The notes beneath the pieces are model-generated. The model worked only from the letters and a program-made list of their open reading frames with translations, did not search any database and was not told the origin of the DNA. This document shows positions 3,331 through 12,610 of a stretch of 62,617 bases of DNA, in pieces; position 1 is the first letter of the stretch; each line of letters starts with the position of its first letter. The stretch is taken from assembly GCA_904398325.1 (NCBI GenBank), contig CAJFPC010000071.1, positions 1-62,617 on the forward strand. The letters run 5' to 3'. This stretch comes from Candidatus Neoruminococcus faecicola (lineage in GTDB: Bacteria > Bacillota > Clostridia > Oscillospirales > Ruminococcaceae). A program made the translations under genes and the position numbers.

Positions 3331-3381
3331 CTGGCGCAAGCCGTTATTTATAATTCTATGTCATAGAAAGGTATGAATAGC

Positions 3382-4374
3382 ATGGAAAAGATGACCAGAA
3401 GCGAAAGACTCAAAGCCGCTATCGCCAGCCAGGAAGTCGACAGACTGCCTGTCAATATGTGGCTGCATAAACCCGACGTGGATCAGGACCCCGTCGCTCT
3501 TGCCGAGGATCAGATCTACTGCGCGAAAGAGTATGGCTTTGATTTTATCAAGATGATGCCGTTCGGCAACTATGCCGCCTCTGACTATGGCCTGAGCTGC
3601 ACCTATTTCTGCACCAAGCTGGACGCTGTGCTGGAGAGAAAATGGGGCATCCAGTGCCTGGATGACTACAAGAGAGTCGTTCCCAAGCCCGGCTATTTCG
3701 GCACCCACGGCAAGGTTCTGATGATCGCCCAGGAGCTGCAGAGACAGCTGAAGGGTGAGGATATCCCCTACATCCAGACCATCTTCAGCCCCATCACCAA
3801 CCTGAAGAAGCTGGCCGGCCCCCGCGTGATCCAGGATATGAGAGAGCATCCCGAGATCATCCATGCCGCTCTGGAAGCCTTCACCGAGACCACCATCGAC
3901 TTCATCAAGCTGAACATCGAGGCTGGCGTTTCCGGTTTCTTCTTCGCTTCCCAGTGCTCCACCACCGATCTGATGACCGAGGCGGAGTATGACGAGTTCG
4001 GCGTCAAGTATGACCTGAAGCTGTTCGACGCCATGAAGGATTGCTGGTTCAACGTGGTGCACATCCACGGCGAGAACACCATGTGGGACAAGCTGGCCCA
4101 GTATCCTGCCCAGTGCATCAACTGGCATGACCGTTGGGTTGCTCCTACCATGGCCGAGGCCAGAAAGAAGACCAACAAGTGCCTGATGGGCGGCATCAAC
4201 GAGGCGAAATTCGCCGACATGACCCCGGGCGAGGTCAAGCATCATGTGCAGGAGGCTGTCGACATCCTGGGCGGCAACACCAAGGGCGTCATCCTGTCTC
4301 CCGGCTGCGTTGCTCATACCAACACCCCTGAGATCAACTACTATGCCCTGCGCATGGCGGTGGAGAACCTGTAA
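3382..4374 (+). CDS. uroporphyrinogen decarboxylase-fold protein, paralogue A
   Basis: A 330-residue protein of the UroD/MtaA superfamily (TIM barrel). It is not HemE: the N-terminal Arg-containing substrate loop typical of heme UroD is absent. His227-x-His229 and Cys309 (in SPGCVAHT) sit where corrinoid or thiol methyltransferases of this fold carry their zinc ligands (His-x-Cys and Cys), so a methyltransferase role is possible. No corrinoid protein or activase gene is nearby. The ATG at 3382 is chosen over 3373 because GAAAGG ends at 3371 and because it aligns with the start of paralogue B. Arginine is often encoded by AGA, unlike most neighbours, which fits high expression. Confidence 0.82.
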   Translation: MEKMTRSERLKAAIASQEVDRLPVNMWLHKPDVDQDPVALAEDQIYCAKEYGFDFIKMMPFGNYAASDYGLSCTYFCTKLDAVLERKWGIQCLDDYKRVVPKPGYFGTHGKVLMIAQELQRQLKGEDIPYIQTIFSPITNLKKLAGPRVIQDMREHPEIIHAALEAFTETTIDFIKLNIEAGVSGFFFASQCSTTDLMTEAEYDEFGVKYDLKLFDAMKDCWFNVVHIHGENTMWDKLAQYPAQCINWHDRWVAPTMAEARKKTNKCLMGGINEAKFADMTPGEVKHHVQEAVDILGGNTKGVILSPGCVAHTNTPEINYYALRMAVENL

Positions 4375-4437: not shown

Positions 4438-5436
4438 ATGGATAAAATGACCCACAGAGAAAGAATCCAGGCGGCCCTGGCCAAAAAAGAAGTGGATAGA
4501 GTCCCCATCAATATCTGGTGGCATATGCCGGATATCGACCAGGATCCTGTGAACCTGGCCGAGACCCAGATCCAGCTGGCGGAAGAGTATGATTTTGATT
4601 TTATCAAGATGATGCCTTTCGGCAACTACGAGGCCTCTGATTTTGGCCTGAGCTGCACCTACTACTGTGATAAAATCCGCCCTGTGTTCGAGCGCAAGTG
4701 GGGCATCCAGTGCCTGGATGACTACAAGAGAGTGACCGAGAAGCCGGGCGATTTCGGCAATCACGGCAAGCACCTGCTCTTCACCCAGGAAATGCAGCGC
4801 ATGCTGGCGGCGAAGAAGAGTGATCTGCCCTATGTGCAGACCATCTTCAGCCCGCTGACCAACCTGAAGAAGCTGGCCGGCCCGCAGCTGTTCACCGACA
4901 TGCGGGAGCATCCCGAGGTGATCAAGCCCGCGCTGGAGGCTTTTGCCGCCACCACCGCCGACTATGCCAAGAAGTGCATCGAGGCCGGCGTTTCCGGTTT
5001 CTTCTTCGCTTCCCAGTGCTCCACCTATGACCTGGTCACCGAGGAGGAGTACAAGGAGTTCGGCGTTCCTTATGATATGAAGGTTCTGGATGCGTTCAAG
5101 GATACCACCTGGTTCAACATTGTGCACATCCATGGCCCCAACACCATGTGGAAGCTGATGGCGGATTATCCGGTCAACTGCGTCAACTGGCATGACCGCT
5201 GGGTCGCCCCCGACATGGCCGAGGCCAGAAAGCTGACCGACAAGTGCCTGATGGGCGGCATCAACGAGAAGCTGCTCAGCGAGATGACCGTTGAGGAGAT
5301 CCGCACCCACCTCAAAGAGGCGGTGGAGTGCGCCGGCACCAACCGGGGCCTGATCCTGTCCCCTGGCTGCGTTGCCCACACCAACACCCCGGCGCTGCAG
5401 TTTATGGCTGCCCGCGTCGCTGCGGAAAACCTCTAA
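4438..5436 (+). CDS. uroporphyrinogen decarboxylase-fold protein, paralogue B
   Basis: A 332-residue tandem paralogue of the preceding gene, with well over half of positions identical by eye and long identical blocks such as VSGFFFASQCST, NWHDRWVAP and SPGCVAHTNTP. The same His-x-His and C-terminal Cys are present, and HemE hallmarks are missing here too. GAAAGG precedes the ATG at a normal distance plus a few bases. The 63-base gap to paralogue A has no terminator, so a bicistronic mRNA ending at the strong hairpin at 5450 is likely. Function and substrate are unknown; the two copies may differ in substrate or form a heterodimer. Confidence 0.82.
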   Translation: MDKMTHRERIQAALAKKEVDRVPINIWWHMPDIDQDPVNLAETQIQLAEEYDFDFIKMMPFGNYEASDFGLSCTYYCDKIRPVFERKWGIQCLDDYKRVTEKPGDFGNHGKHLLFTQEMQRMLAAKKSDLPYVQTIFSPLTNLKKLAGPQLFTDMREHPEVIKPALEAFAATTADYAKKCIEAGVSGFFFASQCSTYDLVTEEEYKEFGVPYDMKVLDAFKDTTWFNIVHIHGPNTMWKLMADYPVNCVNWHDRWVAPDMAEARKLTDKCLMGGINEKLLSEMTVEEIRTHLKEAVECAGTNRGLILSPGCVAHTNTPALQFMAARVAAENL

Positions 5437-5684: not shown

Positions 5685-7001
5685 TTGAGATTTGCAATCG
5701 CTGTACTCATCGGGCGGGTGGTTCGCTTTGCGGGCCGTTTTCTGCACCGCTCCACCAACCTGCCGGGGCAGGTTGCCCTGAAGATCTGCCCCGATCTGCT
5801 GGGCAGGCTGACCTTCCAGGGCAAGGTCATTGCGGTGACCGGCTCCAATGGCAAGACCACCACCTCCAACCTGATCGCCCACATCCTGCGGCAGAACGGC
5901 TACTCGGTGGTCAACAACACCGAGGGCTCCAACCTGACGGCGGGCGTGGCCACCACGCTGCTCTGCTCCTGCACGCTGGGCGGCCATGTGGCGGCCGATT
6001 TTGTGGTGCTGGAGGTGGATGAGCGCTATTCCCGGCTGATTTTTAAAGAGATGAAGCTGGATTATTTCCTCATCAACAACCTGCTGCGGGACCAGGTGGT
6101 GCGCAACGGCAACCCGGATATCGTGCTGGATAAAATCGCCCAGGCGATCCATCCGGGGGTGAAGCTGATCCTCAATGCCAACGACCCCATCTCCCAGACT
6201 ATTTCGCCCGAGACGCCGCGGGCTTATTTCGGCATGGCGCGTACCGAGCGCAGCACCGACACCTGCGTCAACCTGACCCAGGACTGCAAGGTCTGCCCCT
6301 ACTGCTTCCACACCATGCAGTATGAATACTTCCACTACAATCATATCGGCAAATTCGCCTGCTCCCACTGTGATTACCACATGCCCCAGCCGGATTATCT
6401 GGCCACGGATGTGAACTTTGAGACAGGCGATTTCTGCATCAACGGCCATCCCGCCAAGGTGACCTACACTACCGTGTTCCATTTTATGAATACCACGGCG
6501 GCGGTGGCGGTGGCCTGCGAGGCGGGGCTCAAGCTCGAGGATGTCATCGCGGCGGCGGCCACCTTTGAGGTCAGTCGGGAACGGTATGACGAGTTTGACG
6601 TGGGCGGCCGCAAGGCGGTGCTGATGCTCACCAAGCAGAACCCCGTTTCGCTGGATCAGTCCATCTCCTTTGTGCTGACCCGCCCGGAGGAAAAGACGGT
6701 GGTGCTCTTTGTCAACAACGTAATTTATACGGAAAACAAGGATATCTCCTGGCTGTACGACGTCGCCTTTGAGCGGCTGAAGGGCCAGGCGGATTATATC
6801 GTCTGCTCCGGCAGCCGCGCCTATGACATCGCGGTGCGCCTGAAGCTGGGCGGCTTTGAGGACAGCGTCCTCAAGGTGGAGGACGACCTGAAAAAGCTGC
6901 GCGGCGTCATGGAATCCACCACCGGGACCATCTACATCCTGGCGGCCTCCGCCTTCGGCGATGAGGACGGCATCCTGGATGTGCTGCGTCCCCAGAAGTG
7001 A
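5685..7001 (+). CDS. murT: MurT-like Mur ligase subunit (lipid II isoglutaminyl synthase)
   Basis: A 438-residue Mur-ligase-type ATP enzyme. In the MurT-GatD complex this subunit activates the alpha-carboxylate of D-Glu in lipid II for amidation to D-isoglutamine. Visible features are the ATP loop GSNGKTTTS (about residues 52-60), an inserted zinc ribbon with two CxxC pairs (CPYC and CSHC, about residues 205-230), and the C-terminal DUF1727 segment with KDISWLYDVAFE, which keeps the Asp essential in known MurT. TTG at 5685 is the start, with GGGAGGA 8 bases upstream. The gene overlaps the open frame of the next and is clearly coupled to it. The unusual feature is the partner rather than this protein. 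Confidence 0.87.
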   Translation: MRFAIAVLIGRVVRFAGRFLHRSTNLPGQVALKICPDLLGRLTFQGKVIAVTGSNGKTTTSNLIAHILRQNGYSVVNNTEGSNLTAGVATTLLCSCTLGGHVAADFVVLEVDERYSRLIFKEMKLDYFLINNLLRDQVVRNGNPDIVLDKIAQAIHPGVKLILNANDPISQTISPETPRAYFGMARTERSTDTCVNLTQDCKVCPYCFHTMQYEYFHYNHIGKFACSHCDYHMPQPDYLATDVNFETGDFCINGHPAKVTYTTVFHFMNTTAAVAVACEAGLKLEDVIAAAATFEVSRERYDEFDVGGRKAVLMLTKQNPVSLDQSISFVLTRPEEKTVVLFVNNVIYTENKDISWLYDVAFERLKGQADYIVCSGSRAYDIAVRLKLGGFEDSVLKVEDDLKKLRGVMESTTGTIYILAASAFGDEDGILDVLRPQK

Positions 7002-7018
7002 AGGGAGGAGGAACCGGT

Positions 7019-7732
7019 ATGCGTGAAGTGAAACTACTGCACCTTTACAGCCAGACGCTGGATCTCTACGGCGATTATTCCAACCTGACGGCTATCCGCC
7101 GCCGGGTGGAGGAGATGGGCTATCCCTGCCGGGTGGCTTATGCCGAGCTGGGCGACCCCATCCAGCCGGAGGGCTACGATTTCATCTATATGGGCCACGG
7201 CAAGGCCCGCAATCTGGCCGCGGTGGCGGAGCATTTCTGCAGCTACGGGCAGGCGCTGCTCGATGCCGTGGAACGGGGCCAGCTCTTCCTGGTCACCGGC
7301 AACGCCCGCCTTTTGTGGGGCAAGAGCTTTGAAACCTATGACGGCGGCCAGCAGAAAGGCATCGGCCTGTTTGATACCACCGCGGTGGAGACCAATGCGG
7401 TTTTTGTCAGCGATGTGGTGGCCCATCCGGCCTTTGACGAGTCGCTCACCAGCTATGGCTTTGTCAACCGCACCTCCCACATTGTGGGGGAAAACCCCTG
7501 CCCGCTGTTCCGGGTGGTGAAGGGCTGCGGCGACGGCACCGAAGCCAGCGGGGCAGAAGGCAACCTTTATCACAATTTGTTCGCCACCTGGCAGATGGGG
7601 CCGCTGCTGGCGCGCAATCCCGCCATCCTCAAGGAGCTGCTGCACCGGATGCTGGGGGAGGACTATCGGGATTTTGATACTTCGCTGGAAGAAAAGGCTC
7701 TGGCCCTGACGCTCAAAGAATTCGATCTGTAA
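7019..7732 (+). CDS. GatD-like class I glutamine amidotransferase homologue lacking catalytic Cys and His
   Basis: A 237-residue homologue of GatD, the glutaminase partner of MurT. It aligns along its length, from LLHLYSQTLDLYGDYSN to LFATWQMGPLLARNP. The nucleophile-elbow motif of GatD (ICGGYQ) reads VTGNAR here, putting Thr93 in place of the catalytic Cys, and the YLHGP motif reads WQMGP, putting Met193 in place of the catalytic His. Codons were checked directly (ACC at 7295, ATG at 7595). It should therefore not hydrolyse glutamine by the known mechanism. The start at 7019 is set by GGGAGGAGGAA; the upstream gene stops at 7001. It may be a structural or allosteric partner of the MurT-like ligase, which could use free ammonia or another amine. 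Confidence 0.83.
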   Translation: MREVKLLHLYSQTLDLYGDYSNLTAIRRRVEEMGYPCRVAYAELGDPIQPEGYDFIYMGHGKARNLAAVAEHFCSYGQALLDAVERGQLFLVTGNARLLWGKSFETYDGGQQKGIGLFDTTAVETNAVFVSDVVAHPAFDESLTSYGFVNRTSHIVGENPCPLFRVVKGCGDGTEASGAEGNLYHNLFATWQMGPLLARNPAILKELLHRMLGEDYRDFDTSLEEKALALTLKEFDL

Positions 7733-7768: not shown

Positions 7769-9115
7769 ATGGGCTTAAAACGAGAACTGCGCGTAATCGA
7801 CATTTTTTCCCTGGCGCTGGGCGCCATCATCGGATGGGGGTGCTTTGTGCTGCCCGGCACGGATTTTTTGCCTCAGGCAGGCCCGTTGGGCACGCTGCTG
7901 GGGCTTTCTGCCGGCGGCATCATGGTGGCCATCATCGGCTTCAATTATGGTTTCCTCATTGAAAAATATCCGGAAGCGGGCGGCGAATTTGTTTATGCCT
8001 ACCGCAATCTGGGGCCGATCATGGGCTTTATCTGCGGATGGTTCCTGCTGCTTTCCTACATTTCCATCATCCCGATGAATGCCACTGCCATTGCCATGGT
8101 GGGGCGGTACATTTTCCCCGGCGTGCTGCAGCACGGATACTTATACTCGGTGGCCGGCTGGGAGGTCTACCTGGGCGAGGTCATCGCCGCCACGCTGTTC
8201 CTGGTGCTGTTTGCCTGGATCAATATCCGCGGCGTGCGCAGCATGGGGAATTTCCAGACCCTGCTGGTGGTCCTGCTGGTGGGGACGGTGCTGATTCTCA
8301 CGGGTTCCACCTTCTTTCTGCATGAGAGCGCGGCGGCCAATCTTTCCCCCGCTTTCCCCACGGGTATCACTCCGCTGGCTGCCGTGATGGCCATCTGTGC
8401 GATGGCGCCATGGGCGTTTTCCGGCTTTGACTGCATCCCTCAGGCGACGGAGGAATATAATTTCTCCCACAAGAAATCCAAGGTGCTCATTATGCTTTCC
8501 ATCGCGTTTGCAGTGCTGATGTATGTGTGCATGACCCTGGTGACCGCAGCTTATGAGCCGTGGGAAGGCTTTCTCGCCTCTGCGCCGCTGTGGCCCACCG
8601 GCGAATCGGTCAACGCCGTCACCGGCACCCCGGGCATGGTGCTGCTGGCCATTGCGATGCTGTGCGCTGTTATTTCCGGCATCAATGGGTTTTATATGTC
8701 GGCCAGCCGGCTGATTTATTCCATGTCCGCCTTTAAGGCGCTGCCGCCCAGCTTTTCCAAGCTTTCCAAAACCTCCACGCCGAAAAACGCCATCCTTTTT
8801 ATTCTGCTGATTTCGCTGTTTGCTCCCTGGTTTGGGCGGCAGGTACTCAGCTGGATTGTGGATATGTGTTCGGTGGGCGTGAGCGTGGCCTATTTTATCA
8901 CTTCCATGGTGGCGTTCCGCCGCAGCAAAGGGGAGAGCCGGCCCTTCATCCGGGTCACCGGCGTGCTGGGCATGCTGGTGTCTCTGGTGTTCCTGGCGCT
9001 GCTGCTGGTGCCGGGTATGCCGGGCTTTTTGGCGCCGGAATCTTTGATCATGCTGGGCATCTGGGTGGTGCTGGGCGTCTGCTTTTTGCTGTTTAAACGC
9101 CGCCATCAGGCGTAA
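7769..9115 (+). CDS. APC-family amino acid permease
   Basis: A 448-residue integral membrane protein with about 12 hydrophobic segments and the APC signature near the N-terminus (LALGAIIGWGCFVLPG), where unwound helix 1 binds the substrate amino group. It probably imports or exchanges an amino acid; the substrate is not evident. The ATG at 7769 follows GAGAGGAG at 7753-7760. It lies 36 bases after the GatD-like gene and may be read from the same mRNA, with no obvious terminator between. Confidence 0.85.
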   Translation: MGLKRELRVIDIFSLALGAIIGWGCFVLPGTDFLPQAGPLGTLLGLSAGGIMVAIIGFNYGFLIEKYPEAGGEFVYAYRNLGPIMGFICGWFLLLSYISIIPMNATAIAMVGRYIFPGVLQHGYLYSVAGWEVYLGEVIAATLFLVLFAWINIRGVRSMGNFQTLLVVLLVGTVLILTGSTFFLHESAAANLSPAFPTGITPLAAVMAICAMAPWAFSGFDCIPQATEEYNFSHKKSKVLIMLSIAFAVLMYVCMTLVTAAYEPWEGFLASAPLWPTGESVNAVTGTPGMVLLAIAMLCAVISGINGFYMSASRLIYSMSAFKALPPSFSKLSKTSTPKNAILFILLISLFAPWFGRQVLSWIVDMCSVGVSVAYFITSMVAFRRSKGESRPFIRVTGVLGMLVSLVFLALLLVPGMPGFLAPESLIMLGIWVVLGVCFLLFKRRHQA

Positions 9116-12019: not shown

Positions 12020-12592
12020 TCAGCCGCAGACATAAGCCATCGGGTGGCTGACGACCAGCTCGTTTACGCAGCCTTCCGCCTCCAGCGAGAGCTTGGCGCA
12101 GCAGGCCTCCTCCGGGACAGGGAAGCGCCCGATCATCCGGCGGGGATTGCAGGAAAGGAACGGGGTCACATTGCGGCGGATGGTGGTGAGCAGCTGGCCG
12201 CAGCAGTCATAAAAATCCACCCTGAGGCGCACGGTGCCGCCGCAGCCCTTGCGCATGCAGAAGCCCCAGTACACCGCGGAGCGCCCGCACACCGACAGGG
12301 AAGGGCAGTAGCTCAGCTGAGAGGTCTGGCCACAGCCCTGCTGGCAGAGCTTCAGGCTTTTGGCGCAGCGGCAGCCGCAGCCGCAGGGATGCCCCCAGCC
12401 CTGGCAGCCGCAGGAATTGCTGCAGCCGCAGTTCTGGCATCCGCCGCAGGAATTGCCGCAGCCCTGGTCGCAGCAATCGTCACAGCTGCCCCAGCAGCCA
12501 TCCTCGTAGGAAAAAGCGCTGTCCATGCTAAAAAAACGCGGGCTGCCGTCGCAGCCGGGATATAGGTACGGATTCATGATAATGTTTTTCAT
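12020..12592 (-). CDS. cysteine-rich protein, possibly a spore-surface protein
   Basis: A 190-residue protein with 29 cysteines (about 15%), most in residues 14-110 in Gly-Cys-rich runs such as CGNSCGGCQNCGC. The C-terminal half is less biased, with a beta-rich segment (TVRLRVDFYDCCGQLL) that recurs in Clostridia spore-associated proteins only in a general sense; I do not recognise a named family. The ATG at 12592 is preferred to 12598 because AGAGGA is 6 bases from it. It has no signal peptide or membrane span. The upstream CATA-type element suggests late mother-cell expression, and extensive disulfide cross-linking would suit a coat or exosporium role (inference). Metal storage is an alternative. 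Confidence 0.75.
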   Translation of the reverse strand: MKNIIMNPYLYPGCDGSPRFFSMDSAFSYEDGCWGSCDDCCDQGCGNSCGGCQNCGCSNSCGCQGWGHPCGCGCRCAKSLKLCQQGCGQTSQLSYCPSLSVCGRSAVYWGFCMRKGCGGTVRLRVDFYDCCGQLLTTIRRNVTPFLSCNPRRMIGRFPVPEEACCAKLSLEAEGCVNELVVSHPMAYVCG

Positions 12593-12610
12593 TTTCATTC
12601 CTCTTTCTTT

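Follow-up and report, generated by a model that had tools for sequence, protein, structure and literature searches.

A GatD homologue without the catalytic Cys, predicted to have lost glutamine hydrolysis, marks a large and conserved branch of MurT/GatD pairs in one class of Clostridia-like bacteria

The window analysed here, i.e. the whole stretch of 62,617 nucleotides, carries a gene for a MurT-like Mur ligase and, adjacent to it after a spacing of 17 bases, a gene for a homologue of its partner GatD. The features relevant to this study are the following:

5685–7001, + strand: MurT-like Mur ligase, 438 aa, TTG start (Pfam MurT_C, 2.5e-23; Mur_ligase_M, 5.3e-9; PDB 7q8e, 1.6e-57)
5838–5864, + strand: MurT P-loop TGSNGKTTT (Lys57 and Thr58, aligned to Lys59 and Thr60 of S. 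aureus MurT)
6294–6371, + strand: MurT zinc ribbon, Cys204, Cys207, Cys226 and Cys229 (alignment)
6741–6743, + strand: MurT Asp353, equivalent by alignment to S. aureus Asp349, the third member of the proposed glutaminase triad
7002–7011, + strand: ribosome-binding site of the GatD gene, AGGGAGGAGG, read directly
7019–7732, + strand: Cys-less GatD homologue, 237 aa (NCBIfam GatD, PDB, family alignment)
7196–7198, + strand: His60, replacing the oxyanion-hole Gly60 (family alignment)
7295–7303, + strand: Thr93-Gly94-Asn95, the clade motif at the nucleophile elbow (ungapped profile alignments)
7400–7402, + strand: Val128, replacing the glutamine-binding Arg128 (family alignment)
7595–7597, + strand: Met193, replacing the catalytic His189 (profile alignments)
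7769–9115, + strand: APC-family amino acid permease, directly downstream of GatD (Pfam AA_permease_2, 1.1e-35)

The reading frame of GatD is intact, from the ATG at 7019 to the stop at 7732. The protein matched the NCBIfam GatD model NF045636 (1.9e-24) with 86 bits against an equivalog cut-off of 400, which was not reached, and Pfam GATase_3 (PF07685; 2.2e-7) with 31.1 bits, above the cut-off of 27. GatD chains in the PDB were matched at 9e-19 to 3e-15 (6fqb, at 9e-19, 9sq9 and 5n9m), and a scan of viral contigs returned no relatives. Elsewhere in the window, two tandem paralogues of MtaA/UroD-family corrinoid-type methyltransferases (3373–4374 and 4438–5436) lie directly upstream of MurT on the same strand, and an ORF on the minus strand (12020–12598) contains a stretch very rich in Cys and Gly (GCGNSCGGCQNCGCSNSCGCQGWGHPCGCGCRC).

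The placement of the nucleophile elbow was ambiguous in pairwise alignments and was settled by family alignments, specifically by profile–profile comparison with ten canonical GatDs and by a profile search of the PDB. The resulting ungapped alignment (VTGNARLLWGK versus TICGGYQFLGK) sets Gly94 of the window GatD opposite Cys94 of the S. aureus protein and Thr93 opposite Ile93, while in the family alignment Asn95 stands opposite the oxyanion-hole Gly95. The initial annotation had reported that the catalytic Cys and His are both missing, and this holds; it had, however, named Thr93 as the replacement of the Cys, which is instead Gly94. Its assignment of Met193 to the position of the His agrees with the profile alignments, in which this residue faces His189. 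The replacements of Arg128, Gly60 and Gly95 go beyond those it had listed. All together, the Cys–His pair and the oxyanion hole of a class I (triad) glutamine amidotransferase are absent from the window GatD (Gly94, Met193, His60 and Asn95). An AlphaFold2 prediction, for which the L014 homologue was the sole additional sequence, was of poor quality (mean pLDDT 43) and has no evidential weight; its strand 91–93 and helix from 96 are compatible with Gly94 at the elbow.

In S. aureus GatD, the C94A, H189A and R128A substitutions each abolish glutaminase activity, Arg128 being a glutamine contact (PMC5871853), and with C94S lipid II is no longer amidated in vitro (PMC6113224). Since these changes inactivate the S. 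aureus protein, glutamine hydrolysis should, judging from the sequence, be lost in the window GatD, as the initial annotation had also expected.

The MurT partner presents a different picture. As previously proposed, it keeps the ATP loop, the zinc ribbon and the essential Asp: the alignment shows Lys57, Thr58, Asn83, Glu110, Asp136, Arg140, Asn269, Lys317, Asp353, Asp359 and the four Cys, whose columns are invariant in Cys-less and canonical types. The PDB entry that it matches, 7q8e, is S. aureus MurT. Its scores, 230 and 206 bits, do not reach the NCBIfam equivalog cut-offs of 800.

We then assessed how widespread the loss of the Cys is. The genome from which the window derives is a draft of 94 contigs, 92% complete, and a second GatD was not found in it, which answers a point that the initial annotation had left to be checked. 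One match in this genome (C54) was rejected as a GatD and is HisH, while two others (C49) are GATase_3 domains in long frames, which we take to be cobyrinate/cobyric acid synthases. The survey at the order level covered 394 genomes, many of which, like others surveyed, look metagenome-assembled; matches were obtained in 100 of them, including a few to fragments or to GATase_3 proteins of other kinds. Among the 95 GatD genes of the order typed by sequence, 67 lack the Cys and 28 carry it, and no genome in this survey was seen to hold both types. The class and phylum searches, in which the best-scoring 30 loci were typed so that the counts are lower bounds, yielded at least 12 more Cys-less pairs outside the order in the wider class sample. 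In the other classes of the phylum the Cys was missing in only one of 27 typed loci (L147). This GatD has Gly at the position of Cys94, retains His189 and a canonical MurT, and lies inside the canonical clade, amid canonical sequences; its Cys-to-Gly change is either a separate natural event or an error.

Phylogenetic analyses grouped the Cys-less pairs together. With L147 set aside, the MurT partners of Cys-less GatDs fell into one clade (79 of 79, SH-aLRT 99), and under a mixture model all 60 of the 60 partners included grouped with a support of 99. The same was observed in a GatD tree built without the active-site columns, in which the Cys-less sequences group (62 rows, support 99). CobQ/CobB-type relatives of GatD carry the Cys, and therefore its loss is the derived state. 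These trees point to a single old origin of the Cys-less MurT/GatD type.

Of the 82 members of this clade, 81 have Gly at position 94 and one has Ser; His189 is retained in none, and Arg128 in 55, with Val in the window subclade. The T-G-N triplet ranks with the best-conserved segments, only seven of 202 consecutive triplets having an equal or lower mean entropy. The window pair belongs here, with Gly94, no His189, the T-G-N motif and a MurT inside the Cys-less clade. Its own subclade (the window, L014, L047, L048 and L050) shares His60, T-G-N-A, Val128, Arg149, Trp187 and Met189 (S. aureus numbering). A second large Cys-less subclade (L176, L179–L191 and L193–L196, also L010 and L101) has signatures of its own, GFKSQF and LGPLLVLN in GatD, and RDSxxRNAHP, AKGQNPxACSR and Asn in place of Asp349 in MurT.

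For gatD, dN/dS values (NG86) of 0.07–0.20 were obtained for most Cys-less pairs, and of 0.22–0.38 when the window was compared with L014 and L047, the latter being rough, with dS near or above 1. Such values indicate that gatD of the Cys-less clade is under purifying selection. That the same substitutions return in 82 homologues from a single clade, at dN/dS values far lower than 1, puts them beyond chance. The initial annotation had asked whether the changes are conserved in homologues, which they are, far more widely than it assumed, and had argued against simple decay, with which the intact frame, the recurrence of the residues and the dN/dS values agree. A pseudogene, an error of sequencing or assembly, or a recent loss confined to this genome, which the draft state of the genome might suggest, is hence hardly tenable: the gene has a ribosome-binding site, the same residues occur in the independent genomes L014, L047, L048 and L050, and the survey of homologues led us to reject a recent isolated loss. 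All together, these data suggest that the Cys-less pairs mark a large, old and well-conserved branch of MurT/GatD in one class of Clostridia-like bacteria.

The conservation of the new motif could be read as the sign of a relocated active site, with GatD still hydrolysing glutamine through, for instance, Thr93 as nucleophile. Thr93 is conserved in 71 of the 82 members, Asp19/Glu19 is kept, and in 31 of 82 a His stands at 187, two positions ahead of the original one. However, the Cys-less alignment contains no invariant Cys or His, position 187 is Trp in the window, where Arg128 is also gone, both oxyanion-hole glycines are replaced, and in S. aureus even C94S is dead (PMC6113224), so that we consider this reading very improbable.

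Turning to MurT across the clade, nearly all members keep Lys59, Thr60, Asn85, Glu108, Asp134, Arg138, Asn267, Arg298, Lys315, Asp355 and the zinc Cys (S. aureus numbering), while Asp137, Glu141, Asn341, Asp342, Asp349 and Arg375 are changed in most. Specifically, the Asp349 equivalent is retained in the window subclade and is Glu or Asn across most of the clade; there are insertions at 315–317, the loops facing GatD and the nucleophile side are altered, and in the main subclade the DNADD region has become DAxSRKYF, adding an Arg and a Lys. In S. pneumoniae, loss of the loop residues matching Asp134 and Arg138 by numbering lowers activity, while those matching Asp137 and Glu141 are replaceable with minor effect (PMC6085368).

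This remodelling raises the hypothesis that the pair no longer acts on the D-Glu of lipid II, which would remain free in the wall, and ligates or amidates another carboxylate or regulates cell-wall synthesis. The loops are altered where contact with the third stem residue has been proposed (Asn341-Asp342-Asp349, Arg375), the scores fall far under the NCBIfam equivalog cut-offs, and one side branch lacks several MurT landmarks. Against it, nearly all members retain the acceptor-contact residues Asn85, Glu108, Asp134, Arg138 and Asp355, and the Cys-less pair replaces the canonical MurT/GatD rather than accompanying it; we regard a change of target as unlikely. The side branch (L085 4354–5685, L086 3997–5325 and L088 4368–5804) has Asn85 changed to Gly and lacks the RDQxxRNG loop; both its genes are under purifying selection, and its MurT may have another role.

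The gene neighbourhood was compared with a simple ORF caller, which sometimes picked antisense frames. As a rule gatD adjoins murT across the clade, and no third gene conserved beside the pair was found in these neighbourhoods. An APC-family amino acid permease on the same strand lies directly downstream of the Cys-less GatD in three of the five window-subclade loci, i.e. the window, L048 (6726–8135) and L050 (3842–5329), but not at L014 and L047. In the window, the permease is probably in the same operon as the pair and is at most a candidate member of the system. The MurE of this genome has a DNPR motif, which implies an ordinary meso-DAP peptidoglycan, a point that we count in favour of the ammonia-based reading given below.

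The permease enters into a further hypothesis, namely that the pair links the alpha-carboxyl of D-Glu, or a neighbouring carboxyl, to another nucleophile, for example an amine or amino acid, with the GatD pocket binding or delivering the nucleophile. Pocket residues are indeed re-conserved and not free to vary (T-G-N, Glu63, Lys/Arg149), the glutamine contact Arg128 survives in two thirds of the clade, the SRKYF change supplies basic residues, and the MurT loops towards GatD and the nucleophile have been remade, insertions included. On the other hand, the changes vary by subclade with no single binding motif, the window subclade has neither SRKYF nor Arg128, no conserved ligase or racemase partner lies nearby, and the literature found describes no modification of this kind in these bacteria; a search on amine-modified D-Glu returned one unrelated genome paper. 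Because the subclades do not converge on one motif, we rate this proposal, fairly unlikely in our estimate, below the ammonia-based reading discussed next. Its bolder form, in which the clade would be a distinct ligase coupling the D-Glu alpha-carboxyl of peptidoglycan precursors to an amino acid or amine, with the former glutaminase pocket binding the nucleophile and an undescribed wall chemistry in many members of the class, is an improbable one.

The reading that we tentatively favour, giving it nearly an even chance, is that the pair amidates D-Glu in an ammonia-dependent manner, with GatD as a pseudo-glutaminase that serves as a non-catalytic activating subunit. MurT would use ATP to activate the alpha-carboxyl of D-Glu on the lipid-linked peptidoglycan precursor and would amidate it with free ammonia rather than with ammonia derived from glutamine; GatD would still be needed by MurT for assembly and activation. 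This reading builds on sequences in which the Cys, the His and, in the window subclade, Arg128 are gone, while the catalytic, acceptor and zinc residues of MurT are kept, in pairs of apparently single old origin that are under purifying selection and constantly paired, with no canonical GatD alongside. Cys-less and canonical pairs were not seen together in any one genome, as is expected if one replaces the other. In the work of Munch et al., S. aureus MurT combined with GatD C94G no longer amidated lipid II with glutamine but still did so with ammonia at pH 8.5, and MurT on its own had no activity with glutamine or with ammonia (PMC3266927). We favour the ammonia-dependent amidase because the clade has fixed at position 94 the exact change of this mutant. 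In addition, mammalian CPS1, the human enzyme included, follows the same logic: the Cys of its glutaminase domain has been lost, the domain persists, and ammonia is used (PMC4655335).

Three points speak against the ammonia-dependent amidase. Ammonia is accepted by the S. aureus enzyme only at pH 8.5, and not at 7.5 (PMC3266927); a purely structural GatD would need neither a conserved T-G-N elbow nor Arg128 in 55 of 82 members; and the MurT changes (Asp137, Glu141, Asn341-Asp342 and the insertions at 315–317) exceed what the loss of glutaminase requires. In the bacteria with Cys-less pairs, the nitrogen donor is probably free ammonia, or else the cell wall is modified in another way.

Several Gram-positive pathogens cannot do without MurT/GatD, which is regarded as a glutamine-dependent enzyme with a conserved Cys–His pair; in Bacillaceae, on the other hand, murT-gatD is nearly absent (PMC6085368). 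Here, a clade in one bacterial class has discarded the glutaminase yet kept both subunits under selection, which opens to test the roles of GatD beyond glutamine hydrolysis and whether a cell can sustain peptidoglycan amidation on ammonia alone. It also raises the question of the true identity of the second stem-peptide residue in these bacteria. Life in the gut seems likely for many members among such Clostridia, and if so this residue bears on the sensing of peptidoglycan by NOD. Annotation of the Cys-less proteins as glutamine amidotransferases is, on sequence grounds, probably wrong as to the nitrogen source. The literature searched offered nothing pertinent on a Cys-less GatD, with no paper found describing the clade, nor on the muropeptides of Faecalibacterium-like bacteria, and biochemical or muropeptide data for bacteria with Cys-less pairs were not found.

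Among known systems, the closest is the MurT/GatD lipid II isoglutaminyl synthase of S. aureus and S. pneumoniae (6gs2, 5n9m and 6fqb), with which the window pair shares the two-gene unit, full-length homology of both subunits, the P-loop, zinc ribbon and catalytic residues of MurT and, by profile, the GatD fold. It differs in the absence of Cys94, His189 and Arg128, in the replaced oxyanion-hole glycines, in the altered MurT loops facing GatD and in scores below the equivalog cut-offs. The S. aureus GatD C94G mutant likewise combines Gly at position 94 with an intact MurT (PMC3266927), but it is an engineered single change, whereas the pairs described here have lost the entire glutaminase site, in whose place stands a new conserved motif. 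Mammalian carbamoyl phosphate synthetase 1 also keeps a glutaminase-like domain after loss of the catalytic Cys and has free ammonia as its substrate (PMC4655335); unlike the present pair, it is an unrelated synthetase with a fused domain, a Cys-to-Ser change and an allosteric activator, N-acetylglutamate. Finally, archaeal MurT-like ligases (PMC11915815) are relatives of MurT that work without a glutaminase; in those GatD is absent, whereas in the Cys-less pairs a GatD-like subunit is kept under selection.
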